Positions 12,943 through 49,290 of a DNA stretch of 49,290 nt are shown here, in pieces; positions within the stretch are counted from its first letter, which is position 1; the number at the start of each line of letters is the position of its first letter. The position numbers and the translations under genes are program-made. Source of the stretch: Actinomycetota bacterium (GTDB taxonomy: Bacteria > Actinomycetota > Thermoleophilia > Solirubrobacterales > 70-9); contig JAFDWG010000316.1 of the NCBI GenBank assembly GCA_018268605.1, positions 1-49,290 on the forward strand. Reading direction: 5' to 3'. The notes below the pieces were generated by a model. The model was not told the DNA's origin. It saw only the letters and a list, made by a program, of their open reading frames with translations, and searched no databases.

Positions 12943-12956
12943 ACCGATATCTCCTT

Positions 12957-13080: not shown

Positions 13081-13104
13081 GTTTCGGTCGTGTTGACCGT
13101 CGGC

Positions 13105-23619: not shown

Positions 23620-23743
23620 CGAGGTCCTGGGACCGGCGCATCTCGGTGTCCTCGGTCGCTCGGCTCGGGTCACGCACTGCAGTGCGCTCCCCTCACCTCG
23701 CTTCCCTGCGTCCTTGAGCTGCTCGGCCCCAGGACCTCGTCAC
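23616..23743 (+). repeat. Structured intergenic repeat R1, copy B
   Basis: This 128-base element spans the stop codon of the acyl-CoA reductase gene and ends 11 bases before the next start. The terminal arms 23616-23631 and 23728-23743 are perfectly complementary over 16 bases, but their sequence differs from the arms of copy A. The inner palindrome CGCACTGCAGTGCG is at 23673-23686. Because both flanking genes run in the same direction, the element is not confined to convergent gene ends. Confidence 0.75.
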
Positions 23744-33261: not shown

Positions 33262-33510
33262 GTGCCGGGCCAGGGCGGCCGTCCGAGGGGCGGTGCCCTG
33301 GGCATCTCATGGAGGTCCTGGCAGGCTGTGAGCTCCATTAGACGCGCAGGACGGGAGGGGCGCGGTGTCTCTCCGAGGGTTCGTGCGTGAGAGGCCACAC
33401 CTCGGCCGATCAGTCGACGAAGACGTCTGGAACTCCACGCTTCCTCGCGCCTTCTGTCGGAACCGGTGGACTTTCCGTGACGGTTCCGGACCCCGATCGC
33501 CGCTCGCTGA
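33262..33510 (+). repeat. Structured repeat R2, copy 1
   Basis: The element starts 8 bases after the helicase stop. A GC-rich lead is followed by an imperfect hairpin. Left arm 33297-33317 and right arm 33330-33350 pair at 17 of 21 positions around the 12-base loop CTGGCAGGCTGT (33318-33329). A tail of about 150 bases follows and aligns along its length with copy 2, including a block of about 42 identical bases (near 33368-33412). No open frame of interest is seen. The rest of 33511-33525 is unremarkable. Confidence 0.75.
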
Positions 33511-33525
33511 GTGAGGGCCGGTCCC

Positions 33526-35853
33526 TCAGAGCGTGAGCGTCTGGGGGAAGCGCGAGTTCTGACCGCCGGTTTCCTTCGTGGTCGCCACGAGGCCGAGCTT
33601 CTTCGTCTTTCCGGTCCTGACCCGTTCCCGGAGCTTGTCGGTGACGCTGAGGGCGGGCGAGGCGACCTTCAGTGAGATGGCTTGATTCGGGGAGAGGAGA
33701 CGGACCTGGATCGACTTGCCCACCCTTCTGACCGCGACCTTGAGGCGCTTGCCGCCGGCTCGGGCGACGATCCCGGTCGCGAGGTCCTCCTTCGTCGCCG
33801 CGAGGCGGAGGCCCGGGGGCATCGCGATCGTCACGGCTTCGATCTTCGCGCCCTGGCGCGCTTCGAGGCCGAGGGTCAGTTTCGGTGCGCCCTTGGCGAC
33901 GCCCGCGAGGCGGGAGGTCTTCAGGTGGGCGAGGGGCGCCGGGCTCGGGGCCGGAGTCGCGGTCGGCTTGTTCGTGCCGCTGTCGGACGGCGCCGGAGGG
34001 GTGGGCGGAGCCGGCGGCACGGGCGGATTGGCGAGTGCACAGAGGGACCCCCCGAGGGTCGTGCCGATCGGAGTGCCGATCCCCGTCGCCATGTCGTAGT
34101 GGGAGCCGGGGAAGAAGGGTTTGGTGTCGTCGAAGATGTCGTTCGATTTCAGGCCGCCAGGACGGGAACCGACCACGTCGTCGAAGTTCGCCTCGTAGGC
34201 GGCTCCGCCGATCGAGTAGAGGGCGGGGTTGGCGAAGCCGATCGCCTTGCCGCCGCAGGCGGGGCTGGCGTTCGCGAGCGTCGCGAAGGCCGCCCACAAT
34301 GGCGCCGCGGCGCTGGTGCCACCGGTCTCGCCCCATTTCCTTTCGGTGAAGACGACATAGGAGGTGTCGGGATCCGCCTCGGCGGAGACGTCGGGGACCT
34401 CGCGGCAGTAGCCGGGCAGCCCGCAGGTGGTGCCGGCCGCGAGGGGGCTCACCACGTTCAGCGACGGCGACGATTCGGCCTGGTAGGAGGGCATGCCCCA
34501 GTGGGCCGAGACGCCCCCACCCCCGGCGCCGCCTTTCGTCCCGTCGCTCCAGATGTACTGGACCGTCGGCGCCGTGGCCGATTCCAGGCGAGTGCCGCCG
34601 ACGTCGGTGGCGAACGGGTCGCTCCCCGGGTAGTCGACCGTGATCGCCTTGTCCGGGTTTTCGCTGTCGTAGCAGTCGGTCGCGCCGTCGTCCCCGGCGG
34701 CGACGAAGAAGGACTGGCCTTGCGCGGCGGCCTCCTGGAGGAGCGTGCTGATGGCGCTGAATTCGGCCGGGTCGGTTTCTTTCTCGCAGAGGCCCCAGGA
34801 GCTCGACATCACCTTCGCCCGGTTCTCGGTGATCCAGGTCGAAAGGATCTGCGTCGTCGTGCTCGATTCGTTGGGCCCCTGGTATACGACGATGTCGGCC
34901 TCGGGTGCAAGTCCGATCAGCTGCTCGATGTCGAGCTCCGACTCACCGCCGTCTTCTTCCTTGTACGGCCCCGGCCCGCCGTTGATATCGACCGGTTCTA
35001 CGCCGGCGTGGGTTCCGTAGCATTTCTGGAACTCCGCGATGTCGGCCGGCAGGTACGGTTCTTCCTCGAGCAGCGCGATCGTCTGCCCGGCGCCGAAGTT
35101 CCCCGCCGCGTAGTAACCGGTGAGGCTGTAGGCGGAGGCGATCTGGTCGGTGGTGTAGCCGCTTTCGAATTCTTCCCGGGTTTCGATCGCGTCCGCGCAC
35201 GGCTGCGGAACACCGGTGAGGACGGAGGTCGTCCCGGCCGTCGAGGGCGAGCTCGGCCCCGGCCGGGAAGGCTCCGCGCGTGGGGCCGCCTGGTTCTGCG
35301 GGACGTTCAGGTCGTCGAGGCCGAGGATACCGGCGACGTACGGGGCTGCCGCGGCGGGTACCTCAGGCGCGCTCGTGTTGGCGAAGGCGACCCGGCCGTC
35401 GGGAGTGCGGACGCGTTCGAAGCTCGTGCCCAGGGCCACTTCGGCTTCCGCCGCGGTCGCTTCCACCGGCAGCGAGAGGTTGTTCTCCGAGGGCGCTCCC
35501 ACGGTGAGCCCGCGCGCCTGAAGCGCCGTGCGGACCCTGGCCACCTGCGCGGGGGCCGCGCCGAAGCGGTCGGCGAAGCCTTCTACCGAGAGGTACTGGC
35601 CGTAGAGCGGTGACCCCGGGGTGGAGACCTCCGTGGCGAAGCTTTCGAGCCCGGCCGGGTCCCGCGGTTCCAGGGCGACGAAGAGGTTCAGCTCCTGCTG
35701 CGGGGCCACGGCGCCGAGAGTGGTGGCGCCCGGTGGCAGCGTCGGCGCTTCGCCGACCGGAACTCCGTCGGCCGAGGCGGCGGCCGGGATCAGGACGCAG
35801 CCGAATGCGAGGAAGGTGGACAGGACGGTGAGGAACCGCCGGGACGAAGGCAC
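33526..35853 (-). CDS. Secreted sedolisin (S53) serine-carboxyl peptidase
   Basis: A 775-residue exported protease. A signal peptide (about 1-29) precedes a pro-kumamolisin activation domain (about 45-180). The catalytic domain (about 220-610) shows Glu304 and Asp308 in GGESELDIEQL, the oxyanion Asp in VAAGDDGATD (about 388) and Ser514 in GGTSAAAPLWA. The calcium-site region FDDVVGSRPGG lies near 557-567. These enzymes are usually active at acid pH after self-cleavage of the propeptide. After a Pro/Thr/Ala linker (about 610-645) an extra C-terminal beta-rich domain of about 130 residues may bind cell wall or substrate. The start is GTG 35853, with the signal peptide directly following. It lies downstream of a sensor kinase and receiver gene on the same strand. 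Confidence 0.88.
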   Translation of the reverse strand: MPSSRRFLTVLSTFLAFGCVLIPAAASADGVPVGEAPTLPPGATTLGAVAPQQELNLFVALEPRDPAGLESFATEVSTPGSPLYGQYLSVEGFADRFGAAPAQVARVRTALQARGLTVGAPSENNLSLPVEATAAEAEVALGTSFERVRTPDGRVAFANTSAPEVPAAAAPYVAGILGLDDLNVPQNQAAPRAEPSRPGPSSPSTAGTTSVLTGVPQPCADAIETREEFESGYTTDQIASAYSLTGYYAAGNFGAGQTIALLEEEPYLPADIAEFQKCYGTHAGVEPVDINGGPGPYKEEDGGESELDIEQLIGLAPEADIVVYQGPNESSTTTQILSTWITENRAKVMSSSWGLCEKETDPAEFSAISTLLQEAAAQGQSFFVAAGDDGATDCYDSENPDKAITVDYPGSDPFATDVGGTRLESATAPTVQYIWSDGTKGGAGGGGVSAHWGMPSYQAESSPSLNVVSPLAAGTTCGLPGYCREVPDVSAEADPDTSYVVFTERKWGETGGTSAAAPLWAAFATLANASPACGGKAIGFANPALYSIGGAAYEANFDDVVGSRPGGLKSNDIFDDTKPFFPGSHYDMATGIGTPIGTTLGGSLCALANPPVPPAPPTPPAPSDSGTNKPTATPAPSPAPLAHLKTSRLAGVAKGAPKLTLGLEARQGAKIEAVTIAMPPGLRLAATKEDLATGIVARAGGKRLKVAVRRVGKSIQVRLLSPNQAISLKVASPALSVTDKLRERVRTGKTKKLGLVATTKETGGQNSRFPQTLTL

Positions 35854-35922
35854 GTCCCGGATATCGACCGACCGTGGGCTCTCCTTGAACCGGATCCTGG
35901 CGGGCGCGCCCGGCCCGGTTGG

Positions 35923-36297
35923 CTAGGCGGCTTTGGCGGTCAGTTCGGCGACCGCACCGAGCAGCGCGTCGAAGTCGATCGGCTTGGTGACGTAGCCGCT
36001 GATCTCGAGATCGGCCGGGGCGTCGGCGTCGTCGGGAGTCTGGTGGGCGCTGACGATCAAGGCCGGCGTCTCGAGCCCGGCAGCGCGCAGCTCGCGGAGG
36101 GCGTCGATGCCCGATTTGCGCGGCATCATCGCGTCCAGGAGGAGGATGTCGGGGCCATCGGTCGAGTTCGGGTCGACTCGCTCGGTGACCTCCTGGCCGT
36201 CGGCCGCGGTCTCCACCGTGTAGCCCGCCAGTTCCAGGCGCGTGCGCATCAACAGCAGGATCGTCTCGGAATCGTCGGCGACGAGGACGGTGGTCAT
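35923..36297 (-). CDS. Single-domain response regulator (receiver only)
   Basis: A 124-residue CheY-like receiver. It begins TTVLVADDSETILLLM with the acidic pair at residues 8-9. The phospho-acceptor Asp is in ILLLDAMMPRKSG (near residue 55), the switch Ser in PALIVSAHQ and the conserved Lys in YVTKPIDFD (near 106). There is no DNA-binding or enzymatic output domain, so it must act by protein contact or phosphotransfer. Its ATG overlaps the stop of the histidine kinase gene (ATGA), which marks the two as cognate partners. Confidence 0.9.
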   Translation of the reverse strand: MTTVLVADDSETILLLMRTRLELAGYTVETAADGQEVTERVDPNSTDGPDILLLDAMMPRKSGIDALRELRAAGLETPALIVSAHQTPDDADAPADLEISGYVTKPIDFDALLGAVAELTAKAA

Positions 36298-37589
36298 CGT
36301 CGGCCTCCTTCGCCGATCATCGGGGCGGTGGCGGGCGCCGCCCCGAGCGCCTCGGGGCCGCCGGCGGGGAGGGAGACGGTGAAGGTCGAGCCGCGGCCGA
36401 CCACGGAGTCGGCGGTGATCGTGCCGCCGTGCAGCTCGACCAGCGATTTGGAGATCGCCAGCCCGAGGCCGGTCCCGCCTACCCGCTGGGTCAGACCCGC
36501 GTCCCCGCGCACGAATCTCTCGAAGATGTGCTCAAGCTGAGCGGGGGGTATGCCTGGGCCATTGTCGGTCACGCTGATCTCCACTCCATTGTCGGCTACC
36601 CGAGCGGCAACCTGGATAGACGCGTGTTCAGGGGAATAGTCATGCGCGTTGGTAACAAGATTCACCAGTATTTGGCGAATTCGGTCTGCCTCGACGTTCA
36701 CCAGCGGCAGATCGGGGTCGATTCGCATGGTCAGGTCCTGGTCCGACGCCTCGGTCTGGGCCCTCATCGTGCGGACGACGTCTTCGACCAGCGGTCCCAA
36801 CTGGGTGGGCTCGGGCCGGACCTGGAGGCGGCCCGCGTCGGAGCGGGCGAGGTCCAGCAGGTCGTTCAGAAGGCGCACCAGATGCCGGCAGTTGTCGAGG
36901 ATGATCTCGACCGTCTCCACCTGGTGCGGCGTCAGCGAGTCGCGGTCCATCATCAGCAGCTCGGCGAAGCCCTGCACCGAGGTCAGGGGGCTGCGCAGCT
37001 CGTGTGAGGCGGTGAGGACGAACTCGTCTTTCATCCGGTCGAGCCGGTCGCGTTCGGAGGCCTCGAGCTCGAGCTCCGCGGCCATCTCGTTGAAGGCTTT
37101 GCCGAGCGTCGCCACCTCGGAGACGCCGCCTACCTCGACCCGGGCGCTGCGATCGCCGCCGGCGAGGCGTCCCGCCGCCCCGACGAGTGCCTCGAGCGGC
37201 CTTCGCATCGCCTGGATCAGGCCGACGAAGAGGAGGAGCGCGCCGAGCAGCCCGGCGATCAACCCGGCGCCGACGAGGATCACGGTGTCGCGAGTGTCGC
37301 CGGAGATCGAGTCGCGCAGGTGTTCGCGGGTGGCTTCTTCGCGGCTGATCGCCGCCCGCGCCGCGGTCGGGTTCGTCCCTTCGGCGAGCTGCACCCGCGC
37401 CGCGATCTCCCGCTGGTATGAGCGTTCGATCGAGTTCTCGTAGTCCTGGCGCTGCACGATCAGCCGGCCGACCCCGATCACGGTCACCGCGGTGAGCAGC
37501 GCGAAAGCGATCGCGAAGCCGATCCGGAGGCGGTTGGCAAGCGAGGGACTGAGGCGGCGGGCCTGGCGTGAATATGCTTGCGCGGCGAT
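36294..37589 (-). CDS. Membrane sensor histidine kinase, non-canonical start
   Basis: A HAMP-type histidine kinase. Order: N-terminal helix (RIGFAIAFALLTAVTVIGVG), a short external region (RQDYENSIERSYQREIAARV), a second helix (TVILVGAGLIAGLLGALLLFVGLI), HAMP domain, His box EFVLTASHELRSPLTSVQG, N box LVTNAHDYSPEH, G1 DNGPGIPP and G2 GGTGLGLAISKS. The first canonical start in frame is GTG 37487, but that cuts the first membrane helix to about 11 hydrophobic residues. The open frame extends upstream with basic and hydrophobic residues and has no ATG, GTG or TTG. The coordinate given uses an ATC codon at 37589, eight bases after a TAGCCT box; 37487 is the conservative alternative. It overlaps the receiver gene at its stop. 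Confidence 0.85.
   Translation of the reverse strand: MAAQAYSRQARRLSPSLANRLRIGFAIAFALLTAVTVIGVGRLIVQRQDYENSIERSYQREIAARVQLAEGTNPTAARAAISREEATREHLRDSISGDTRDTVILVGAGLIAGLLGALLLFVGLIQAMRRPLEALVGAAGRLAGGDRSARVEVGGVSEVATLGKAFNEMAAELELEASERDRLDRMKDEFVLTASHELRSPLTSVQGFAELLMMDRDSLTPHQVETVEIILDNCRHLVRLLNDLLDLARSDAGRLQVRPEPTQLGPLVEDVVRTMRAQTEASDQDLTMRIDPDLPLVNVEADRIRQILVNLVTNAHDYSPEHASIQVAARVADNGVEISVTDNGPGIPPAQLEHIFERFVRGDAGLTQRVGGTGLGLAISKSLVELHGGTITADSVVGRGSTFTVSLPAGGPEALGAAPATAPMIGEGGRR
37573..37578 (+). promoter_or_regulatory. -10 box (TATGCT) of the APH-like kinase gene
   Basis: TATGCT ends 9 bases before the ATG at 37588, without a ribosome site, suggesting a leaderless transcript. It lies within the N-terminal extension proposed for the divergent histidine kinase. 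Confidence 0.45.
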
Positions 37590-38664
37590 GGGAGACGAGG
37601 CTACAGGCCAGGACGACAGGTTCGCCGCGGCCGAGGTGGATGGGATCGACGCTGCCGGCGTCGGTATCTGGTTCGCCGAGCACGTGCCGGCGGTGACGCC
37701 GCCGCTTGCCTTCGAGCGGATCGCGGGCGGCCATTCGAACCTGACCTATCGGGTGAGCGACGCCGGCGGGAGCGAGTGGGCGTTGCGGCGTCCGCCACTC
37801 GGCAAGACCCTCAGCTCGGCCCACGACATGGCGCGCGAGCACCGCGTCGTCGCCGCGCTCGGCGGCACCCCGGTCCCGGTCGCGCCCGTCGTCGGGCTCT
37901 GCGAGGACGAGGCGGTGAACGGCGCGCCCTTCTACGTCATGGACTTCGTCCGCGGGCCGGTCCTGCGCGGCGTCGCCGAGGCAGAGGCCTCCTTCCCCGA
38001 CGAGGGCGACCGTCGCGAGATCGGCCTGCGCGTCGCCGACACGCTGGCCGCCATCCACGCCGTCGATCCCGACGCAGTCGGGCTCGGCGGGCTCGGCCGC
38101 AAGGAGGACTACGTCGCCCGCCAGCTGCGCCGCTGGTATGGGCAGTGGGAGAAGTCGAAGACGCGTGAGCTGGCCTCCATCGATCGCGTCCATGACCGGC
38201 TCGCCGCCCGCATCCCGGCCCAGGAGGGCGCCACGATCGTGCACGGCGACTATCGCCTCGACAACATGATCCTCAACGACTCCGGCGAGGTCGCGGCGGT
38301 GGTCGACTGGGAGCTCTGCACCCTCGGCGACCCGCTCGCCGACGTCGGCACCCTGATGGCCTACTGGCCGGAGCGCGACGCCCCCGACGTCGCCCTCGGC
38401 ATGCCCGCCAACCTGGCGCCAGGCTTCCCCACCCGCTCCGAGGTCGCCGCCCGCTACGCCGAGTCCTCCGGTCGCGACCTCGCCGAACTCGACTTCTACA
38501 TCGCCCTCGGCTACTGGAAGCTGGCGATCATCCTCGAGGGCGTCTACGCCCGCTACGCCGCCGGCGGCTACGGCAACTTCGAGCTGAACCGCGGCCTCGA
38601 AGAGTTCGCCCGCCTGGTCGAGCGCCTCGCCGTGGCTGCCGAGGAGATCGAGTCGCGCGGCTGA
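37588..38664 (+). CDS. APH-fold phosphotransferase (ACAD10/11-kinase-like)
   Basis: A 358-residue aminoglycoside-phosphotransferase-fold kinase. The N-lobe has FERIAGGHSNLTYRVSDAGG (nucleotide loop) and WALRRPP with the ATP-binding residue region. The catalytic loop is IVHGDYRLDNMIL (about 215-227) and the metal Asp is in VVDWELCTLGDPLADVG (about 236-252). This subgroup is linked in many bacteria with acyl-CoA dehydrogenases and resembles the kinase half of animal ACAD10/ACAD11, which act on 4-hydroxy acyl chains. An acyl-CoA dehydrogenase gene lies convergently just beyond it (38868-40133), which supports such a role. It is not expected to confer antibiotic resistance. ATG 37588 is preferred over the in-frame upstream start at 37492. 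Confidence 0.85.
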   Translation: MGDEATGQDDRFAAAEVDGIDAAGVGIWFAEHVPAVTPPLAFERIAGGHSNLTYRVSDAGGSEWALRRPPLGKTLSSAHDMAREHRVVAALGGTPVPVAPVVGLCEDEAVNGAPFYVMDFVRGPVLRGVAEAEASFPDEGDRREIGLRVADTLAAIHAVDPDAVGLGGLGRKEDYVARQLRRWYGQWEKSKTRELASIDRVHDRLAARIPAQEGATIVHGDYRLDNMILNDSGEVAAVVDWELCTLGDPLADVGTLMAYWPERDAPDVALGMPANLAPGFPTRSEVAARYAESSGRDLAELDFYIALGYWKLAIILEGVYARYAAGGYGNFELNRGLEEFARLVERLAVAAEEIESRG

Positions 38665-38665
38665 G

Positions 38666-38854
38666 ACTTCATCGCGACCCGGCGCGGTCGCGACGCTGAT
38701 CAACTTCGAAAACGGTGAGATTACCGCCGGGGTGGCGCCCGACAAACTCGGCTCCAGCTCGGTTTGCTCCATCGGGAACGTCGGGGCACGGGTCGAGACC
38801 TACAACGACGCGGGGACGATCGCCAACAAGGGCTTCATGGTCGTCTTCAACTGA
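38666..38854 (+). pseudogene. Orphan C-terminal gene fragment
   Basis: Between the convergent kinase and acyl-CoA dehydrogenase genes the plus strand holds an open frame of 62 codons ending in TGA at 38852-38854. It has no start codon near its beginning; the first GTG is about one third of the way in. The translated end includes FENGEITAGVAPDKLGSSSV and ANKGFMVVFN, which has the composition of a secreted or structural protein rather than chance translation. Codons such as GTT, AAA, GAA and ATT are more AT-rich than in the neighbours. It is best explained as the tail of a gene whose 5' part was deleted, possibly of foreign origin. Confidence 0.4.
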
Positions 38855-38867
38855 CGGAGCAGGTCAC

Positions 38868-40133
38868 TTAGACCATGCGGGCGGCGTGCCGCGGCTCCAG
38901 CGGCTCGCCGTTCGCTTCGGCCTCGGCGCGCTTCGACCAGCGGTTCAGCTCGCGACGGGCGAGGACCATCTTGTGGACCTCGTCGGGGCCGTCGGCGAGG
39001 CGCAACATGCGGCTGTAGCGCCACATCGGGGCGAGGACGGTGTCGTCGGCCATGCCGAGGCTGCCGTGGATCTGGATCGCGCGGTCGAGGACGTTCATCA
39101 CCATGTTCGCGGCGACGACCTTGATCGCCGAGATCGACTGGCGGGCGGCGCGCTTGCCCTCGGTGTCCATCTTCCAGGCGGCGTAGAGGGTGAGCAGGCG
39201 GGCCTGGTCGATTTCCATCCGCGAGGTGGCGATCGACTCTTGGACGAACTGCTTGTCAGCCAGCGGGCCGCCGAAGGCCTGGCGTTCGTTGGCGCGGCGG
39301 CACATCATCTCGTGGGCCCGCTCGGCGGTCCCGATCGCCCGCATGCAGTGGTGGATGCGCCCCGGGCCGAGGCGGTCCTGGGCGATCGCGAAGCCGGCGC
39401 CGCGCTCGCCGAGCAGGTTCTCCTTCGGGACGCGGCACTCGGTGTAGCGGATCTCGCAGTGCCCAGGGCCCTTGTCGTGTCCCATCACCGGGATCGCCCG
39501 CACCAGCTCGTAGCCCGGGGAATCGGTGGGGACGCAGATCATCGAGGCCCGCCCGTAGGCCGGCGCGTCGGGATCGGTGACGACCATCGCGATCGCCATC
39601 TCGGCGCCCACCGCGCCGCTGGTGTACCACTTGTGCGCGTCGATCACCCACTCGTCGCCATCGAGGACCGCGCGGCCCTGGAGCAGGGTCGGGTCGGAGC
39701 CCGACACCTCGGGCTCGGTCATCGAGAAGCAGGTGCGGATGCGGCCCTCCAGGGCCGGCTCGAGCCACTGCTCGCGCTGCTCGGCGGTCCCGTGCTCGGC
39801 GAGGATCTCCATGTTGCCGGTGTCCGGGGCGGAGCAGTTGAAGGCCATCGGCGCGGCGAGCGGGCTGCGTCCCATCTCCTCGCAGAGCAGCCCGTACTCC
39901 CAGTTCGTCAGCCCGGGGCCGAAACGCTCGTCCGCCATGAAGAGGTTCCAGAGCCCCTCGCCGCGAGCCTTCTCGCGGATCGCGGTGAGGTTCGCCGGGT
40001 AGGGGACACCGGGACCGACCTCCTCGTCGAGCGCCTCGGCGACCTCGCGCTCCACCGGATAGATCTCGGCGTCCATGAAGTCGAGGATGCGCTCGCGCAG
40101 CGCGGCGACCTCTGCCGTCGGTTCGAAGTCCAT
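38868..40133 (-). CDS. Acyl-CoA dehydrogenase
   Basis: A 421-residue FAD flavoenzyme that introduces a 2,3-double bond in an acyl-CoA. The N-terminal helical domain is followed by FSMTEPEVSGSDPTLLQ (FAD and substrate contacts, about 136-152), WYTSGAVGAEMAI, and the C-terminal domain with RQAFGGPLADKQFVQ, RAIQIHGSLGMADD and RLADGPDEVHKMVLARREL. It resembles the ACAD10/11 and FadE-like branch, in which the catalytic base varies in place. A GGAGG ribosome site lies close before the ATG at 40133. The convergent APH-like kinase gene is a plausible functional partner. The natural substrate is not evident. Confidence 0.92.
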   Translation of the reverse strand: MDFEPTAEVAALRERILDFMDAEIYPVEREVAEALDEEVGPGVPYPANLTAIREKARGEGLWNLFMADERFGPGLTNWEYGLLCEEMGRSPLAAPMAFNCSAPDTGNMEILAEHGTAEQREQWLEPALEGRIRTCFSMTEPEVSGSDPTLLQGRAVLDGDEWVIDAHKWYTSGAVGAEMAIAMVVTDPDAPAYGRASMICVPTDSPGYELVRAIPVMGHDKGPGHCEIRYTECRVPKENLLGERGAGFAIAQDRLGPGRIHHCMRAIGTAERAHEMMCRRANERQAFGGPLADKQFVQESIATSRMEIDQARLLTLYAAWKMDTEGKRAARQSISAIKVVAANMVMNVLDRAIQIHGSLGMADDTVLAPMWRYSRMLRLADGPDEVHKMVLARRELNRWSKRAEAEANGEPLEPRHAARMV

Positions 40134-40173
40134 CGTTCCTCCCTCTCGCTGATCCGGTCGCGGCGAATCTAGT

Positions 40174-40905: not shown

Positions 40906-40913
40906 GCCTAGAG

Positions 40914-40919
40914 ACCCTA
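40914..40919 (-). promoter_or_regulatory. -10 box (TAGGGT) of the RibD-like gene
   Basis: TAGGGT on the minus strand ends 8 bases before the GTG at 40905. It sits in a short tandem of TCTCTAGG and shows no ribosome site downstream. Confidence 0.45.
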
Positions 40920-40941
40920 GAGAGCGCCCCGGGCGGGCGAC

Positions 40942-41934: not shown

Positions 41935-41943
41935 GAGCGTGGC

Positions 41944-41949
41944 ATTCTA
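41944..41949 (-). promoter_or_regulatory. -10 box (TAGAAT) of the sulfotransferase gene
   Basis: TAGAAT on the minus strand ends 9 bases before the GTG at 41934. It lies in a gap of only 21 bases to the divergent gene at 41956, so the two promoters must overlap. Confidence 0.5.
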
Positions 41950-41955
41950 GCTGTG

Positions 41956-43005
41956 ATGCCGGTTCTCCTCGTTAAGCCACCGCCGGGCGACCTCGGGTCG
42001 AGCCTCGAACAGTTCTTCAACGCGACGACGGAATTCTTCCGCCACCTCTCCGAAGTGCGTTGGGACCAGTTCGGATTGGCGCTGCTCTGCCTTCTGGCGA
42101 TGCAGCTCTGCCGGGCCTGGGCCTGGCGCAACGTCCTGCGGGCGGCCTACCCGGGGAAGCGGATCGGCTTCACCCAGCTCTCGGCGGCCTACCTGGCCGG
42201 GGCGGGCATCAACGCGGTGATCCCCGCGCACGCCGGCGACGTCACCAAGGTCTTCCTGGTCAAGCGGCAGATCCCCGACTCCTCCTATCCCGCCGTCACC
42301 TCGTCGTTCCTCGTGCAGACCGTCTTCGACACCTCGATCGGCATCCTTGTCCTCCTCTACGCGATCACGCAGGGACTGCTGCCGCCACTGCCCGAGCTGC
42401 CGCATCTGCCGGCGTTCGAGGTCTCCTTCTGGGCCAACCACCCGAAGACGCTGGCGATCACCGTCGGCGTCCTCATCCTGGCGATCGTCGTCGGCGTCTG
42501 GCTCCTGGCGCATCGGGTGCGGCGCTTCTGGGACAGGGTCAAACAAGGCCTCGTGATCCTCACCCGCCCGCGGGACTACATGAAGCAGGTCTTCGCCTGG
42601 CAGGGGATCGGCTGGCTCTTCCGCTTCGCCGCCTTCTGGTTCTTCCTCGAGGCCTTCGGACTGAAGGGCTCGATCGGCAACGTGATGTTGGTGATGAGCG
42701 TCCAGGCGATCGCCAACATCGTCCCCTTCACTCCTGGAGGAGCGGGCGCCCAGCAGGCCCTTCTCGTCGCCACCCTGAAGGGGCCCTCGCGCGCCGCGGT
42801 CCTCTCCTTCTCGGTCGGCACCCAGATCGCGATGGCCGCCTGGTCGGTCGTCCTCGGCTTCGCCGCGATCTTCCTCGTCTTCCGGACCACCGACTGGCGC
42901 GGCCTGATCAAACAGGCCCGGGACGAGGCCGACCGCGACGAGGGCGGCGGCCCCGGCGCCTCCGGCGGCGGCACCAACGAAGCCCCGACCCCGAGCTCCG
43001 CCTAG
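41956..43005 (+). CDS. Flippase-like integral membrane protein (UPF0104/LPG-synthase TM family)
   Basis: A 349-residue membrane protein with about eight helices. AAYLAGAGINAVIPAHAGDV (about 76-95), SSFLVQTVFDTSIGILVLLY and ANIVPFTPGGAGAQQALLVA (about 254-273) match the lysylphosphatidylglycerol synthetase transmembrane/UPF0104 family, often linked with transport or flipping of polyprenyl- or phospholipid-linked molecules. The hydrophilic, Gly/Glu/Asp-rich C-terminal tail (about 315-349) is cytoplasmic. The start is ATG 41956; a longer open frame upstream is antisense to the sulfotransferase gene. Its stop overlaps the stop of the convergent gene at 43002 by three to four bases. Confidence 0.83.
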   Translation: MPVLLVKPPPGDLGSSLEQFFNATTEFFRHLSEVRWDQFGLALLCLLAMQLCRAWAWRNVLRAAYPGKRIGFTQLSAAYLAGAGINAVIPAHAGDVTKVFLVKRQIPDSSYPAVTSSFLVQTVFDTSIGILVLLYAITQGLLPPLPELPHLPAFEVSFWANHPKTLAITVGVLILAIVVGVWLLAHRVRRFWDRVKQGLVILTRPRDYMKQVFAWQGIGWLFRFAAFWFFLEAFGLKGSIGNVMLVMSVQAIANIVPFTPGGAGAQQALLVATLKGPSRAAVLSFSVGTQIAMAAWSVVLGFAAIFLVFRTTDWRGLIKQARDEADRDEGGGPGASGGGTNEAPTPSSA

Positions 43006-43694
43006 TCCGACCAGCCCGGGTAGCGGGCTTCGACATGCCACCGCCAGGGCGGTTCTTCGGCCGCGGGGAAGTCGTAGTGGTTGCGACCGGGAAGGATCTC
43101 GAGGGGGATCAAGGCGGGATCCTGGGACGCGCGGACCTCGGTCCCGGCGGCGGCCTCGACGTCGGCCGCGGTCGCGGTGCGGCGGACCGCGCGCCAGCCG
43201 AGGGTGGGGCGGTACTCCCAGTAGGCGATCTCGACCGTGCCGTCGGCGCGGCGATGGTCGACCAGTTGGGTGAAGGCGGTGGTGCGGCGGTTGGAGGCGG
43301 TCAGGTGGGGGCCGGCGGCGACGGCGCAGCTCGCACGGCGGCAGCGGCGGAAGTCGACCGGGACGAGAGGTAGGCCGCCGGGTCCGGTCAGAGGCTCGGG
43401 CGCAGGTGCGAGCGCGCGGGTGAGCCGGGCGAGCGGCCGACCGTAGGCGGGGACCAGCGCCTGGTGGCCGCAGGCGTCCGGCAGGTGCGGGGCGCAGACG
43501 ATGCGACGGCCGAGCGCGCGCGCGAGGTCCCTGCCCGCGTCGACTTCGCCGCCACCGGCGACGGCGGCGACGACCGCGACCGCGATCAGTGCGATGAGCG
43601 CCGCCAGCCCCGCCGATTCGACCGTCGCCTGCCCGAGGTCGCTCGCCGCCCCCCGCCTCTCGCTTCCGCTTCTCCATCCCCGCTTCGCGCCCAT
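43002..43694 (-). CDS. TadE/pilin-like secreted protein
   Basis: A 230-residue protein. The N-terminus has a class III (prepilin-like) signal: basic residues, then LGQATVESAGLAALIALIAVAVVAAVAG (split as GQATVES and the hydrophobic run, about 20-47), in which the Glu after the cleavage site is typical of Tad/Flp pseudopilins. The rest is globular, with four Cys (CAPHLPDACG and CRRASC) that could form disulfides outside the cell, and a Trp-rich end. No tad secretion genes lie nearby. A TAGCGT box (43701-43706) ends six bases before the ATG at 43694. The function is unknown; assignment rests on the N-terminus. Confidence 0.68.
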   Translation of the reverse strand: MGAKRGWRSGSERRGAASDLGQATVESAGLAALIALIAVAVVAAVAGGGEVDAGRDLARALGRRIVCAPHLPDACGHQALVPAYGRPLARLTRALAPAPEPLTGPGGLPLVPVDFRRCRRASCAVAAGPHLTASNRRTTAFTQLVDHRRADGTVEIAYWEYRPTLGWRAVRRTATAADVEAAAGTEVRASQDPALIPLEILPGRNHYDFPAAEEPPWRWHVEARYPGWSD

Positions 43695-43774
43695 AAGGCG
43701 ACGCTAGGCGGCAAATACGCACCCGTGGCACGCGGTTCGTGCCAATTGTGCATCGGCGGCCTGCCGGTTCTGCT

Positions 43775-43780
43775 TACATT
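43775..43780 (+). promoter_or_regulatory. -10 box (TACATT) of the small gene at 43787
   Basis: TACATT ends six bases before the ATG at 43787. No ribosome site lies between, so a leaderless mRNA is likely. Confidence 0.45.
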
Positions 43781-43786
43781 CGCTCC

Positions 43787-44056
43787 ATGGAGGGAAGCCC
43801 TTTCAATCTTTTCGGCGATCCCGACGAGTTCCGTGCCCGTATGGAGGAGCTCTCGGAGCAGATGCAGTCCTCGCAACGCGTCGCCTGGGCCGACAACGCG
43901 ATCAAGCTGGCGGTCGAGATGACCGTCGCCTCGATCGGCCGGCTCGACTTGAACGGCACTGCCGACGAGCAGGCGATGCAGGTCCGCGACGCCATCCGCG
44001 TCCTCTTCCCGGAGGCCGTGACCTTGGTGCGCGAGGCTCGCGAAGGCCTCAGCTGA
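43787..44056 (+). CDS. Small helical hypothetical protein
   Basis: An 89-residue, largely alpha-helical acidic protein of unknown function (GDPDEFRARMEELSEQMQSS, then RVAWADNAIKLAVEMTVASI). The pattern of charged helices with a conserved-looking hydrophobic stripe suggests a protein-binding or dimeric bundle. No motif is recognised. ATG 43787 is chosen over 43739 because of the TACATT box just upstream and the more typical N-terminus. The gene stands alone between divergent and convergent neighbours. Confidence 0.65.
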   Translation: MEGSPFNLFGDPDEFRARMEELSEQMQSSQRVAWADNAIKLAVEMTVASIGRLDLNGTADEQAMQVRDAIRVLFPEAVTLVREAREGLS

Positions 44057-44078
44057 CCCGCCGGACGCCGATCCGGTC

Positions 44079-44708
44079 TTAGAGCAGCTCGAAGCGCAGG
44101 TCGACGACCGCGCCGTTGCGGAAGAGCGCGCCGAGCAGCTCGACCGGCACCGCGACGATCGCCGCCGGGATCGCCAGGACGACGCTGGCGAGGGCGTCGA
44201 TGCGGCGCTGCCAGGGCTCGTGGGCCGGGGCAGCCGGGCGGGAGCCGAGCGCGGCGAGGGCGACGTTGTGGCCGAAGGTGACCGAGTTCAGCAGGGTCTG
44301 CCAGGTCTGGACGAAGCTCGCGCCCGGGACCCAGCGGCGGCGGCGGACCACCTGGTCACGCTGGGCGATCAGCCTGCGCACGGCCTCGACCGTGAACAGA
44401 TAGTGGACGCCGGGGACGAGGCCGGCCCAGCCGGCGCCGCCGATCGAGCAGGCGAGGCTCGCCCGGTTGACGATCCGCGCCCGCTCCTGGTCGCCCAGGC
44501 GGTCGAGCGCATGCAGGGCCTCCTCGGTCCCCGCCGACTCGCCGACGATCCCGAGCCCGCAACTCTCGCAGCGGCGCACCGGAGCACCGAGGCGGTCCTC
44601 GTCGGCGAGCCAGCCGAAGAGCGGCTCTCCACAGGCGGGGCAGGGCGGGTTGTCAGGGCCGGCGCCCGCCTCGAGGGGAACGGACCGACGCGTCGTCAAT
44701 TCATCCAT
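44079..44708 (-). CDS. Zinc-ribbon protein with hydrophobic C-terminus
   Basis: A 209-residue protein whose N-terminus has two Cys pairs, CPACGEPLFGW and CESCGLGIVG (about 23-55), forming a likely zinc ribbon. The middle is helical and basic (RRLIAQRDQVVRRRRWVPG). The C-terminal AIPAAIVAVPVELLGALFRNG stretch (about 170-195) is hydrophobic. Its style recalls the last helix of some actinobacterial methyltransferases, but no SAM-binding motif is present, so no enzyme function is assigned. A TACGCT box (44716-44721) ends seven bases before the ATG at 44708. It is divergent from the membrane protein gene at 44748. Confidence 0.65.
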   Translation of the reverse strand: MDELTTRRSVPLEAGAGPDNPPCPACGEPLFGWLADEDRLGAPVRRCESCGLGIVGESAGTEEALHALDRLGDQERARIVNRASLACSIGGAGWAGLVPGVHYLFTVEAVRRLIAQRDQVVRRRRWVPGASFVQTWQTLLNSVTFGHNVALAALGSRPAAPAHEPWQRRIDALASVVLAIPAAIVAVPVELLGALFRNGAVVDLRFELL

Positions 44709-44747
44709 GGGATGTAGCGTACGGGCCGTGCGAGAGAGCAGCCCGAG

Positions 44748-45776
44748 TTGAACCGCCGCAAAGAGGACGTCCTGGCGTGGGAGTCGCGTTGGAGGCTGCC
44801 CACCGGGTTGCTGACCTTCGCCGGTGTGGCGATCGTGATCGTCTCGTCGATCCTGATCGCCGGCGTCAGCGGTACCGGCGAAGCCGAAGTGCTGCGCTCG
44901 CTGTACGACGAATCCTCGACGGTCACGCTCTCCTCGGTGCTCGAGGCGATCGGCTTCGTGATGCTCGCCGCGCCGCTCTACTTCCTCTTCCGCGCCGCTC
45001 TGGCGCGTTCGGGAGGGAAAATGCGCGCGCAGCTGGTCGGGGTGATCGTTGTCGCGCCGATCTTCCTCGCGGTCGGCGGCGTCCTCAACGGGATCGCGAC
45101 CAACGAAGCCGCCGAAACCTTCCACAAGGGCGAAGCGAAGTCGACGATCAGCGCCGAAAAGGGCGCCGAAGAATGTCGTGACGAAGAGCGCGAAAAGGGC
45201 GCGAAGGAGTTCGGCGAAAAGTACGACTCTGGCGCGAGCCCACTCAAAGACTGCGAAGCCACCGAACAGGAAGAAAGCAAGGCCAAGAACGCGCTGAGTG
45301 AAGCCTCCTTGCGCAATCCGGCGACCGGCTTTGGCCTCGCCGGCCGCATCGGCCTTGCCGTCGCCCTGGTCTACAGCTGCCTCTGGGCGATGCGGGTGGG
45401 CCTGCTGACGAAATTCTGGGGCTCCTTCGGGATGGCGCTCGGAGTCGCAGCGTTCATCCTGCTGGTCCAGTTCTGCCTGATCTTCTTCATCTACCTCGGC
45501 CTGTTGCTCATCGGCAAACTGCCGCGCGGCCGACCACCGGCGTGGGCCGCGGGCGAAGCCGTGCCCTGGCCGACCCCCGGCGAGCGGATGGCGAAGGAAA
45601 TCGAACCGAAGGGCGGCGCCCCGGAGCCAGACGAACCCGTCGAAGCCCCGGGCCTGGGCCGGCCGATCGAAGCGCCGGAACCCAAGGAAGCGCCGGAACC
45701 CGAAGGCGACGGGAACTCGGAAGGCGGCGAAAGCGGCAGCGGCCCGCAGCGGCGCAAGCGCAAGCGCCGGGGGTAG
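44748..45776 (+). CDS. Integral membrane protein of unknown function
   Basis: A 342-residue protein with about five hydrophobic helices: near residues 19-41, 66-85, 94-112 (GVIVVAPIFLAVGGVLNGI), 195-215 and 222-255. An external or internal hydrophilic loop (about 118-182) is very rich in Glu, Lys and Ala. The C-terminal tail (about 262-342) is Pro/Glu/Gly-rich and ends in a basic cluster QRRKRKRRG. No known family is recognised. The start is TTG 44748; no ATG or GTG lies in frame nearby. Glutamate is mostly GAA, unlike most neighbours. Repeat R2 copy 2 begins within about ten bases of the stop. Confidence 0.7.
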   Translation: MNRRKEDVLAWESRWRLPTGLLTFAGVAIVIVSSILIAGVSGTGEAEVLRSLYDESSTVTLSSVLEAIGFVMLAAPLYFLFRAALARSGGKMRAQLVGVIVVAPIFLAVGGVLNGIATNEAAETFHKGEAKSTISAEKGAEECRDEEREKGAKEFGEKYDSGASPLKDCEATEQEESKAKNALSEASLRNPATGFGLAGRIGLAVALVYSCLWAMRVGLLTKFWGSFGMALGVAAFILLVQFCLIFFIYLGLLLIGKLPRGRPPAWAAGEAVPWPTPGERMAKEIEPKGGAPEPDEPVEAPGLGRPIEAPEPKEAPEPEGDGNSEGGESGSGPQRRKRKRRG

Positions 45777-45784
45777 GGGTCCCG

Positions 45785-46040
45785 GGGGTCGTTGTGCCGG
45801 CGGGGTGGCGGTCCGAGAGGGGGCCGTCCGAGGGGCGGTGTCCTGGGCGTCTCATGGAGGTCCTGGCAGGCTGTGACCTCCATGAGACGCCCAGGACGGA
45901 GGGAGTGCGGTGTTTCTCCGAGGGTTCGTGCGTGAGAGGCCACACCTCGGCCGATCTCGTGACGAAGGGCGTGGGAAGTCCACGGTTCCACGCATCTTCT
46001 GCCTGAATCCGCTGCCTTCCATGACGGTTCCACATCACCC
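45785..46040 (+). repeat. Structured repeat R2, copy 2
   Basis: A GC-rich lead is followed by a perfect hairpin. Arms 45841-45862 and 45875-45896 pair over 22 bases (one more G-C pair outside) around the loop CTGGCAGGCTGT (45863-45874). The tail to about 46040 aligns with copy 1, including the conserved TCCGAGGGTTCGTGCGTGAG stretch. It follows the stop codon of the upstream plus-strand gene. A 12-base part of the tail (CGTGCGTGAGAG) recurs in inverted form near 46140 in copy 4. Confidence 0.8.
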
Positions 46041-46064
46041 CAGAACGCGCTGCATGACTTAGGG

Positions 46065-46076
46065 CCCCTATAGGGG
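46065..46076. repeat. Perfect 12-base palindrome between R2 copies
   Basis: CCCCTATAGGGG is a perfect palindrome lying between the two oppositely oriented R2 copies. It could be a protein-binding site or the tail end of the elements. Its role is unknown. Confidence 0.35.
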
Positions 46077-46090
46077 GGTCAACTCATGCG

Positions 46091-46132
46091 GCGCTGAATT
46101 CGGTGTTGTGCAACACGCACCGAAGTCAGCGC
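46091..46132. repeat. 15-bp hairpin with 12-base loop
   Basis: Arms 46091-46105 and 46118-46132 are complementary except at one position and enclose the 12-base loop TTGTGCAACACG. The hairpin sits between R2 copies 2 and 4 and has the same loop length but a different loop sequence. It may be part of the 3' portion of copy 4. Confidence 0.5.
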
Positions 46133-46331
46133 TTCTCACGCTCTCACGCACGGAAGCGTGGACTTCCCGACATCTCCCGCGCATCTCCCTCAACGGCGTC
46201 GGAGTTTCTCCTCACCTCACATCCTCCGGCCGTCTCGGCCACGGCCACAGCCAGCCAGGGCCGTGGCCGAGACGGCCGTGCTGGCCGCAGACCCTTGCGT
46301 CCCTTGCCAGGAACGCCGCCCCGCCGACCGC
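46130..46331 (-). repeat. Structured repeat R2, copy 4 (inverted, different stem)
   Basis: Directly after the stop codon of the minus-strand ThyX-like gene, a perfect 19-bp hairpin (46228-46246 with 46259-46277) surrounds the loop CTGGCTGGCTGT as read on the minus strand. The loop differs from copies 1-3 at one base. The stem sequence differs from theirs but pairs fully. The G-rich lead (CGGCGGGGCGGCGTTCC) and parts of the tail (GGAAGTCCACG, CGTGCGTGAGAG) also match the other copies. Confidence 0.65.
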
Positions 46332-47936
46332 CTAGGACTCCGTCGGATGCACGCCGGCCGCGACCTGCTTGCGGTGGGTGCGGATCTCGCTCATCATCCG
46401 CTCGAGTCGGGGCTCGGTCGAATCGTCGACGAATTTCATCGCCGCGGCGACCCCGGGGTGGACCTCGGCGATTCCTTCGTGCATCGCCTGGGCGACCGCG
46501 CGATAGGTGGGGTGGCCCTCGCGGCCGGAGCGCAGCTCGATCAGGTGCATCGCCTCGCGGGCGTTCAGGTCGAGGATGTAGCGGATGCGGAAGGCGAGGC
46601 TGAGGGCGTAGGGGGCGAGCTCGTCGAGGCCGGCGACGGCGAGTCGCTCGTACTCGTTGCGGGAGATCTCCAGCGCCCGTTCGAATTCGCCGCCGACGCC
46701 GGCCTCGCGGACCTCGTCGGGGATCCCCGCGCCGAGCTCGGGGCCGAGCCGCTGCCACTGCACGGTCAGCAGGCGGTGGCGCTGGAGGTCCCGGAAGGCG
46801 CCGTAGTCGGAGACGATCTCGAACCGGTAGCGGAGCGCCTCGAAGCCCCGACCGGGACGGTGGCGGCGGTTGGCGCGCTCCCCGATCACGGCGGCGAGGA
46901 GCTCGCCGCGCTCGTCCCGGCTCAGCGCCTCGACGTGGGCGCGGATCTCGGACTCCGGTACGGCGGCAACCTCGTAGAGGCAGGCGGCGAGCAGGTCGGC
47001 TTCGGTTCCCTCGACGCCGAGGAGGTCGACCGTCGGCGCCGGATCGGCTTCTTCGCGTCGACCGAGCCCGAGGCGCTCGACCCAGCGCTCGGTGCCGGCG
47101 CGGCGCTCCTGCAGGTAGGACACCCACTCGCCGCCGCGCTCGGGCCGCTCGACCCGGGAGACGAAGCTCGGCATCACCTGCTGCAGCTCGGTGAGGATCA
47201 ACGCGCCGAATTCGCGCGCCTCGGGCAGAGGCGAGGCCATCAGCCTCAACAGCAGCTGCTCGTAGGCCTGGCCGGAGGCGTAGATGCCGACGTGGCTGAG
47301 CGTCGCCGCCGGCAGGAGGCCGCGCAGAAGGTCGAGCGCCTTGGCGCGGATCGAGCGCCGCCAGGCGGCCTCGGGCTCCTCGTCGCCGCGGGGCCAGCGC
47401 GTCGCCGCCCACTCCTCGACCTGGCCGAGGGAGCGCGAGTAGATGACGAAGATCTCGTCCATCGCGGCGGCGAACTCGGGGCCGAGCTTCTCGTCGCGGT
47501 AGAAGCGATAGCCGCCGCCGGGCAGCGCTTTGTCATAGGGGATATAACGGGTCGACTGCTCGAGGTAGGCGGCGAGCCGGCCCCGCTGCAGGACCTTGGT
47601 GAGGATGTTCGAGACCCACTCGCAGGCGACGTGGGCGCCGCCGACCTGGGCGATCGAGTCGTCCCCGTAGCCGACGAAGACGCGCTCATACAGGCCGGCG
47701 GCGCGAGCTCCCTCCTCGGCGTCGAAGGGTCGGCCCCCGGCGGGCGCGTCGGCGGCGAACTCTTCCAGGTAGAGACGGCGGACCGATCCGGAATAGCGCG
47801 AATAGCGGGCGAAAAGCGCGCCTTTGACGGTTTCCGGGAGGTTGACCAAGGCGAATACCGGTCGATCCAGATTGGTGAAGTGGGGCGCGAGGAGGGCCTT
47901 CTCCTCGGGCGTGAACTGTTCGGCCGGGTAGCGCAT
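46332..47936 (-). CDS. thyX: Tandem ThyX-like (FAD-dependent thymidylate synthase-like) protein
   Basis: A 534-residue protein with two ThyX-fold halves. The usual ThyX is about 220-250 residues, so this is a tandem form. In the first half the motif region at residues 118-131 reads RGRLAAYLEQSTRY. It keeps Arg, Arg, Glu, Ser and Arg-Tyr of RHRxxSxNExSxRY but has Gly for His and Ala for Ser. In the second half residues 386-398 read RHRLLTVQWQRLG: RHR is kept while the ExSxRY part is lost. The C-terminal LDLNAREAMHLIELRSG segment is ThyX-like. Thymidylate synthesis from dUMP with FAD and NADPH is the family role; whether this protein does it is uncertain. A TACGAT box (47946-47951) ends nine bases before ATG 47936. 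Confidence 0.8.
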   Translation of the reverse strand: MRYPAEQFTPEEKALLAPHFTNLDRPVFALVNLPETVKGALFARYSRYSGSVRRLYLEEFAADAPAGGRPFDAEEGARAAGLYERVFVGYGDDSIAQVGGAHVACEWVSNILTKVLQRGRLAAYLEQSTRYIPYDKALPGGGYRFYRDEKLGPEFAAAMDEIFVIYSRSLGQVEEWAATRWPRGDEEPEAAWRRSIRAKALDLLRGLLPAATLSHVGIYASGQAYEQLLLRLMASPLPEAREFGALILTELQQVMPSFVSRVERPERGGEWVSYLQERRAGTERWVERLGLGRREEADPAPTVDLLGVEGTEADLLAACLYEVAAVPESEIRAHVEALSRDERGELLAAVIGERANRRHRPGRGFEALRYRFEIVSDYGAFRDLQRHRLLTVQWQRLGPELGAGIPDEVREAGVGGEFERALEISRNEYERLAVAGLDELAPYALSLAFRIRYILDLNAREAMHLIELRSGREGHPTYRAVAQAMHEGIAEVHPGVAAAMKFVDDSTEPRLERMMSEIRTHRKQVAAGVHPTES

Positions 47937-47945
47937 GGGTGGGCC

Positions 47946-47951
47946 ATCGTA
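47946..47951 (-). promoter_or_regulatory. -10 box (TACGAT) of the ThyX-like gene
   Basis: TACGAT on the minus strand ends 9 bases before the ATG at 47936 and supports this start over longer in-frame options. Confidence 0.5.
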
Positions 47952-48078
47952 CGCCTGCCACTGGATGTCCTCGGGACGTGTGACGAAAGGCCTGACCGTG
48001 TGCCAACCAAGCACCAGTCTGTACCAATTCATCGGCATTACTTGACCCCTCCGGGGCAGCCGCGCTTGGGTGGCGCCA

Positions 48079-49203
48079 ATGCGGATCGCCGCCCTCGCCA
48101 TCGTCGCTTTCGTCCTCGCCGTCGCGCCCGCCGCAGCGCGTCCCACGGCGATCGTCTCCATCGGCGACAGCTTCATCTCGGGCGAGGGCGGCCGCTGGCT
48201 GGGCAACGGGTCCGATTCGTTCGGGACGCGCTCGGGAACCGATCGCGCCGCCTACGGGTGCGGTGTGCTCGGCTGTGAATACGACCCGGTACGCGTGTAT
48301 GGCGCGAGCGAGGCGAATGACTGCCACCGCTCCGACGTCGCGCCGATCGCGAGCGCCCCGATCGACGTCGACGAGAAGGTGAACCTGGCCTGCTCGGGGG
48401 CGACGGCGCGGGATCTGTGGCCCGGGGACGAAGGCGGCACGGGCCACTTCGAAGAGCCACCGGAGGCCGATCAGCTGGCGGCGGTGGCGCGGCGCGAGCG
48501 GGTGCGGATGGTCGTCGTGACGGTGGGGGCGAACGACGTCGGCTTCGGTGAACTGGTCGCCGAATGTGCGGTCGACTGGGCGCGCAGCCCGGAGGACGAG
48601 GAGGCGACGTGCCACCGCGAAGCCGAGGCGCATATCCAGGGCGCGCTGCCCGCCGCGACGCGACGGATCACGGCCGCCTTCCGGGGGGTGCGGAGGGTGA
48701 TGGGCGCGGCCGGATACTCGCGGTCCGACTACCGGCTGGTGGCGATGGGATACGCCTCGCCATTTCCCCGCGGGAGGTGGTTCCGCTATCCGGAGGACGG
48801 CTGGGCCAGACTGACCGAAGGCGGCTGTCCGGTCTGGAACGCCGATGCCGACTGGGCCGCGGATCGGGCGACCGTCGATCTTGCCGAGGCACTCCGCTAC
48901 GCCGCCGTAGCGACCGCCGCCGAGTACCTCGATCTGGTCCACGCCTTCGACGGCCACCAACTCTGCGACCGCCGCTCGCGGCGCGTCGGCGACGACGGCC
49001 CTTCGCCGCTGAGCGCCGAGTGGTTCCGCCGCCTTTCCTTCACCCAGGGCTCGACTCGCGAATCCCTCCACCCGAACGCCTACGGCCAGAAAGTGATGGG
49101 CACCTGCCTGGGACTGCTGTTCGGGCGCCCCCGCGGTGACTACGCGTGCGCCGATACCCCGGGTGAGTGGTTGGGCGGGGTTGGGTTGAGGGCGATCGGT
49201 TGA
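48079..49203 (+). CDS. Secreted SGNH/GDSL-family hydrolase
   Basis: A 374-residue exported esterase or lipase of the SGNH type. The signal peptide covers about residues 1-20 (RIAALAIVAFVLAVAPAAA). Block I is VSIGDSFISGEGGRW, with nucleophile Ser near residue 29. The Gly block is in NLACSGATARDL, block III is VTVGANDVGFGEL (oxyanion Asn) and block V SLHPNAYGQKVMG holds the catalytic Asp/His region. Several Cys in pairs suggest disulfides, as in Streptomyces extracellular SGNH enzymes. Substrate could be a lipid ester or a polysaccharide ester. ATG 48079 is used; GTG 48070 would add three residues. Repeat R2 copy 3 follows the stop codon and runs off the window. Confidence 0.87.
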   Translation: MRIAALAIVAFVLAVAPAAARPTAIVSIGDSFISGEGGRWLGNGSDSFGTRSGTDRAAYGCGVLGCEYDPVRVYGASEANDCHRSDVAPIASAPIDVDEKVNLACSGATARDLWPGDEGGTGHFEEPPEADQLAAVARRERVRMVVVTVGANDVGFGELVAECAVDWARSPEDEEATCHREAEAHIQGALPAATRRITAAFRGVRRVMGAAGYSRSDYRLVAMGYASPFPRGRWFRYPEDGWARLTEGGCPVWNADADWAADRATVDLAEALRYAAVATAAEYLDLVHAFDGHQLCDRRSRRVGDDGPSPLSAEWFRRLSFTQGSTRESLHPNAYGQKVMGTCLGLLFGRPRGDYACADTPGEWLGGVGLRAIG

Positions 49204-49206
49204 GGG

Positions 49207-49290
49207 GCAGGGCGGGTTGTGCCGGCGGGGGCGGCAGTCCTAGCCGCGGTGCCCTGGGCGTCTCATGGAGGTCCTGGCAGGCTGTGACCT
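49207..49290 (+). repeat. Structured repeat R2, copy 3 (cut by the window end)
   Basis: After the stop of the SGNH hydrolase gene the GC-rich lead (GTGCCGGCGGGGGCGGC), the left arm (about 49251-49273) and the loop CTGGCAGGCTGT (49274-49285) are present. The first five bases of the right arm (GACCT) pair as expected before the window stops. The left arm is almost identical to that of copy 2. Confidence 0.75.

Follow-up and report, generated by a model that had tools for sequence, protein, structure and literature searches.

Paired hairpins with an invariant loop form a probable non-autonomous mobile element at convergent gene ends in Solirubrobacterales

Four copies of a hairpin-bearing repeat are found in the window, which is the 49,290-nucleotide stretch of actinobacterial DNA analysed here, and all four lie at the positions and on the strands given for them in an earlier sequence-only reading. 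The loop reported in that reading, CTGGC(A/T)GGCTGT, is present exactly at 33318, 45863 and 49274 on the plus strand and at 46247 on the minus strand. When one mismatch is allowed, 0.43 matches in the window are expected from shuffles, none of which reaches four. Each loop is positioned 63-86 nucleotides from a stop codon (a TAG ending at 33254, a TAG ending at 45776, the TAG of a minus-strand gene at 46332 and a TGA ending at 49203). The genes upstream are indeed as unrelated as first described, encoding, in the same order, a DEAD/DbpA helicase, a protein that matches no Pfam family, a Thy1/ThyX protein and a GDSL/SGNH hydrolase.

The copies had been regarded as separate, and this part of the description does not hold for those at 45785-46040 and 46130-46331, which face inward as opposite ends of one composite insert (Table 1). 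Independent 3′-UTR copies at 45785-46331 are therefore ruled out, because the A and B units present there are two ends of a single insert. The copy at 46130-46331 shares the loop that is common to all, but its stem differs. We designate this stem type B (GGCCGTCTCGGCCACGGCC), whereas the other three copies carry the type A stem (GGGCGTCTCATGGAGGTC) and close variants thereof. The unit at 33262 is flanked by convergent genes whose ends lie at 33254 (+) and 33526 (-), and no B unit was found in the 271-bp gap around it. The contig ends inside the hairpin of the copy at 49207, as do many other contigs of the same assembly. An Rfam search of the window yielded only a c-di-AMP riboswitch located elsewhere; the hairpin gave no match that exceeded the gathering score.

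Table 1. Features of the repeat in the window.
Feature	Position	Strand	Evidence
Solitary degraded A-type unit (lead, hairpin 33295-33351, tail)	33262..33510	+	Covariance model match 33295-33351, 49.3 bits
Composite element, A unit (+) ... centre ... B unit (-)	45820..46306	.	Between stops of convergent genes ending 45776 (+) and 46332 (-); ends approximate, placed where copies lose similarity
A-type hairpin, ~23 bp stem, loop CTGGCAGGCTGT at 45863-45874	45840..45896	+	Covariance model, 74.6 bits
Central palindrome GCATGACTTAGGGCCCCTATAGGGGGGTCAACTCATGC	46052..46089	.	Sequence; paired in the minimum-energy fold of the composite
Second central palindrome GCGCTGAATTCGG...CCGAAGTCAGCGC	46091..46132	.	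Sequence; best inverted repeat of the core
B-type hairpin, ~20 bp stem, loop CTGGCTGGCTGT at 46247-46258	46224..46281	-	Covariance model, 72.4 bits
A-type unit behind SGNH hydrolase stop	49207..49290	+	Hairpin 49251-49290 cut by contig end; 45.0 bits, truncated 3′

Most of the 20-bp stem is paired across 175 distinct units, and many positions swap one Watson-Crick pair for another. The proposal that the repeat is structured is borne out by covariation, as evident by the 106 double-change cells observed for 36 diverse units compared with 38 in shuffles (0/500). This signal vanishes when the stem partner is slid, with 5-28 cells counted in such controls. Because units had been gathered with a pattern in which the loop is fixed, a separate scan was conducted with 18-bp arms and a free loop. 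This loop-agnostic scan recovered 123 hairpins with a 12-nucleotide loop, 81 of which have the known loop (79 by exact listing of its four main forms and single variants), and approximately 10 more hairpins carry a one-base variant of the loop on A- or B-type stems. Therefore, the conservation of the loop is genuine, and what is conserved in the stem is its shape. More than 50 different 12-nucleotide arms carry the invariant loop, whose consensus for A and B hairpins is the 12-nucleotide sequence C-N-GGC(A/T)GGCTGT.

Pairs of units that share a gap in opposite orientations face inward in 47 of 47 cases, and 46 of these pairs comprise one A and one B unit (nine unclear arms were assigned by eye) separated by an inner distance of 219-772 nucleotides. 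Either order of A and B relative to the chromosome is observed. A full element of ~0.3-0.9 kb consists of an A end (lead and 23 bp hairpin), an interior, and an inverted B end (20 bp hairpin and lead). The interiors usually hold further long palindromes of several unrelated sequences, one of which, GGGCCGAAAA...TTTTCGGCCC, is also found standing alone, and no gene was seen inside an A...B pair among the copies listed. For B copies in the window's own genome, similarity is lost abruptly ~45-50 nucleotides outside the loop, just before AAGGGACGC, and for A copies it mostly ends ~40-45 nucleotides outside the loop. The outer leads are variable, and genome G006 carries them as tandem repeats, such that the outer boundaries are partly blurred.

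The window composite can be aligned along its length to other composites, including a full-length relative, L184, that matches window positions 45822-46305. Its predicted fold is cloverleaf-like (-316.7 kcal/mol, z -8.06), and the median fold z for 23 composites is -8.7. The solitary copy at 33262, taken as a whole, exhibits no unusual stability (z -0.35). Homology between the tails of A and B units was considered and dropped, since the motif common to the window copies occurs in few units.

This family is abundant and restricted to a clade. The window's own genome contains 78 occurrences of the 12-nucleotide loop, compared with one occurrence for a control; a few of the 78 reside within coding sequence, where they have no hairpin. 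In six species that all belong to a single Solirubrobacterales genus, the pattern CCNGGCWGGCTGTG is represented by 105 copies in G000, 66 in G003, 320 in G006, 69 in G007, 313 in G008 and 196 in G011. The other 226 genomes of the order Solirubrobacterales that were searched, which include the six remaining species of the genus and 220 genomes from elsewhere in the order, carry 0-3 matches each, like a reversed-pattern control. A covariance-model search likewise uncovered further copies, with at least 107-111 matches in each of the same six genomes (a cap near 111 applied to the scoring), zero in the other six genomes of the genus, and one borderline match in the 38 additional family genomes. 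Bearing and non-bearing species are split by one bipartition of a tree built from concatenated proteins for eleven genomes. Named records that bear the hairpin are Solirubrobacterales-type MAGs, such as ‘Solirubrobacterales bacterium 70-9’ and Actinomycetota SZAS-9, -10 and -14. Single matches in named non-actinobacterial records were taken as chance, with the exception of L184.

In the syntenic region of eleven genomes, every unit found is located in a convergent gap, and orthologous convergent gaps measure about -9 to 71 bp when empty versus 439-705 bp when filled. In seven genomes, the gap corresponding to 45776|46332 spans 9, 9, 10, 13, 36, 55 and 71 bp; its filled forms span 555 (G000), 705 (G008) and 439 bp (G003). 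At this locus the ThyX gene is adjoined by a B unit in G000 and by an A unit in G003, demonstrating opposite orientations of the element. A second gap, 43005|43002, is -9 to 69 bp long in most genomes and 681 bp long in G011, where it holds an A/B pair; it is also long (1022 and 507 bp) in two more genomes in which no unit is recognisable. The filling differs by species, and at one locus also by orientation, which argues for insertion, and the opposite orientations at one locus together with patchy occupancy indicate at least two independent insertions. Like a MITE, the element is thus a non-coding insertion with empty orthologous sites. Since empty gaps are often only ~10 bp long, any insert must start beside both stop codons, hence the placement of the copies observed in the window. 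No target-site duplication was seen or definable at the junctions inspected; the two ends share the loop and differ in sequence. A less likely alternative is that gaps were enlarged by local growth of hairpins.

The preference for converging genes extends well beyond this region. Among 91 occupied gaps, 57 are convergent, 33 are co-directional and one is divergent, compared with 119, 551 and 184, respectively, for unoccupied gaps (Fisher P = 4e-23 for convergent and 4e-8 for divergent gaps). The background gaps are those in the neighbourhood of elements, because loci were picked around elements, and genes were called by a simple home-made script based on codon usage, so some co-directional cases may be misassigned. 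The flanking genes are diverse, and no transposase family is present among the 25 most frequent. A CTAG- or TAG-specific target was rejected, as TAG is found beside elements in 56 of 76 cases versus 96 of 158 at other convergent ends, which is a slight excess (P = 0.058).

From these data, we consider it likely that the hairpin is one end of a non-autonomous, non-coding palindromic mobile element of the REP/BIME/MITE kind. A palindromic mobile repeat was one of the options raised by the sequence-only reading, and it is this option that accords with the many copies, their restriction to one clade, the variable presence of inserts at orthologous gaps, and the defined pair of ends. The simplest explanation is that a non-coding element was amplified in trans. 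Under this scheme, a trans-acting enzyme would recognise both hairpins via the fixed loop, and divergent gaps, which bear promoters, would either be avoided or be cleared of the element by selection. The invariance of the loop suggests that the factor moving or binding the element would read this loop as a single strand of DNA or RNA. After insertion, transcripts arriving from either flank would fold into strong hairpins just past the stop codon, which probably stabilise 3′ ends and/or aid termination. Any such benefit at 3′ ends would be an effect on the host rather than the cause of the element's spread. The effect might be exerted through 3′-end stabilisation, through pausing that is free of a U-tract, or through a role in supercoiling such as has been proposed for REPs (PMC1525189).

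Several candidate mobilisers were evaluated and rejected. A RAYT transposase does not fit, as no Y1 transposase was found in assemblies of the genus: PF01797 (Y1_Tnp) was detected in 0 of 12 genus genomes, which are incomplete MAGs, and controls including E. coli were positive. Neither IS110 transposases nor reverse transcriptases have a distribution that follows the element.

The same preference for convergent gaps, with units oriented in the sense direction behind stops, would also be expected if the element were a host-selected bidirectional terminator or insulator for convergent genes, fixed for its ability to stop converging polymerases. The strong folds of the composites and the otherwise short length of convergent gaps that lack the element are compatible with this explanation. 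However, TTTT occurs within 20 nucleotides after the stem in only 1 of 215 units, there is no terminator-like site at either window locus, about one third of occupied gaps are co-directional, and occupancy of a locus is patchy among relatives. Furthermore, a terminator would need neither an invariant 12-nucleotide loop nor one A plus one B unit. We therefore regard this explanation as unlikely. The proposal that the repeat is a processing or termination element might hold as a secondary effect, given that units are read in the sense direction behind genes, but classical intrinsic termination is not supported because of the missing U-tract.

Likewise, a conserved regulatory RNA in the 3′ UTR, with a loop that is bound by a protein or small RNA, could account for a loop that is invariant over more than 50 different arms, for compensatory changes in the stem, and for an orientation that matches the upstream gene. 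The corresponding regulon would comprise ~100-300 genes, yet these host genes are unrelated in function, and orthologues of the same gene in sister species lack the element. Moreover, the paired A/B architecture is left unexplained, and an enzyme that reads single-stranded DNA would fix the loop equally well. This possibility seems quite improbable to us, and the undescribed 3′-UTR RNA that had been suggested may apply as a secondary effect only, with the mobile repeat being the supported option.

Among known repeats, REPs are close precedents, as they form inverted heterodimers, occupy gaps between convergent or co-directional genes at sites no more than ~20 bp from stop codons, and vary among species (PMC3733652, PMC2817692, PMC1525189). 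The element shares with REPs and BIMEs its high copy number, clade specificity, palindromic nature, predominance of inverted heterodimers, and compensated stems (PMC2817692, PMC3733652). As in BIMEs broadly defined, inverted pairs of palindromic units with motifs between them are present at high copy in intergenic regions. However, REPs are 20-40 bp long, have stems of 5-13 bp and are tagged with GTAG or CGTC (PMC2817692, PMC3733652), whereas the element described here has stems of 20-23 bp, an invariant 12-nucleotide loop, leads of ~40 nucleotides and central palindromes, with no tag and no RAYT. Similarly, CGTC-tagged REPs form inverted dimers and have no dedicated transposase, but they carry 8-9 bp stems, loops of 4-5 nucleotides and an unpaired CGTC foot (PMC3733652). 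In our element CGTC, if present, resides inside the ~20 bp stem, which is closed by a 12-nucleotide loop. Bacterial MITEs such as ERIC, NEMIS and RUP are also non-coding, are found beside genes and form strong hairpins, but they are 70-300 bp in length with terminal inverted repeats of 15-30 bp (PMC3733652); the element is longer, and its ends are different hairpins that have the loop and parts of the stem in common.

A classical GTAG-type REP/BIME moved by a RAYT transposase would be consistent with the inverted heterodimers, the convergent sites within ~20 bp of stops and the species-specific abundance, all of which fit REPs (PMC3733652, PMC2817692). This identity is nevertheless very improbable, given the lack of PF01797 in the 12 genomes and the longer stem and loop of a different design. 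GTAG is present in the 12 nucleotides before the stem base in only 1 of 188 units (0 of 94 A and 1 of 94 B), and CGTC is found near the stem base inconsistently, in 18 of 188 (15 of 94 A and 3 of 94 B), so the units belong to neither tagged superfamily. That the repeats are an assembly artefact from palindromic reads, as might be imagined from the many contigs that stop inside the hairpin, is hardly credible, because complete composites occur inside long contigs of several independently named MAGs and have stems that are diverged yet compensated.

We class the element as a variant of the BIME/MITE kind that falls outside of known REP families. The initial impression that no family fits is correct with regard to Rfam and to the REP superfamilies defined by a tag, but REP/BIME as a general kind is already known. 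A bolder proposal, which we advance tentatively and with some doubt, is that the element represents a class of hairpin-ended mobile DNA in Actinobacteria, in which an enzyme unrelated to Y1/RAYT transposases reads two different ends by way of the same single-stranded loop and in which placement is directed to converging gene ends.

These findings add a large and well-resolved palindromic repeat family for Solirubrobacterales, an order for which literature searches gave no such repeats. Nothing relevant was found in the literature on repeats in Thermoleophilia, and the word Actinobacteria is absent from the 2013 REP survey. Inverted hairpin dimers in convergent gaps are a recurrent solution, reached here without the known transposase. 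The presence of an invariant loop on so many different arms gives a concrete starting point in the search for the enzyme or RNA-binding protein by which it is recognised. Viral contigs gave 24 hits for a loop pattern, all of them single and scattered. The element also explains assembly breaks in these genomes, as well as why some convergent gaps in the clade are enlarged.

The window also carries a dispersed repeat other than R2, which is ~100 bp in length, starts with GGACCGGCGCATYTCGGYGTCCTCGGTCGCTCGG and is situated immediately 3′ of stop codons. Unlike R2, this repeat is genus-wide, as evident by its presence in 12 of 12 genomes (1 to 38 matches per genome, from candidate lists limited to 40). 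A separate short palindrome, GGGCCGAAAA...TTTTCGGCCC, is likewise distinct from R2, and its inner part is both variable and self-complementary. It is observed alone as well as adjoining R2 units, and may act as a bidirectional terminator or belong to a further family of palindromic repeats. The inverted repeat CCCCTCGCTCGCCACG ... CGTGGCGAGCGAGGGG, which resides in another convergent gap, also differs in sequence from R2.

Positions of additional elements in the window and in other sequence records (L-handles)
Element	Position	Strand	Remarks
c-di-AMP riboswitch	window 12946-13091	(-)	73.3 bits, E 3.3e-15
GGACCGGCGCATYTCGGYGTCCTCGGTCGCTCGG repeat	window 3245-3344		behind stop codon
GGACCGGCGCATYTCGGYGTCCTCGGTCGCTCGG repeat	window 23626-23738		behind stop codon
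Inverted repeat	window 16919-17062		between facing gene ends, 16904|17224
Short palindrome	L031 72, L109 6087, L110 7789, L111 1446, L124 3275, L126 6358
Expanded B-unit lead	L263 11171-11463		genome G006

R2 elements are present on a contig labelled Proteobacteria (SZAS LIN-13; L184, JAFEFH010000094.1), which matches a locus of the window's own genome at 96% across 388 bp. This contig is probably mis-binned, its true source being an organism closely related to that of the window. In G006, one of the six R2-bearing genomes of the genus, the lead of an R2 B unit has grown to approximately nine tandem copies of 32-35 bp each.
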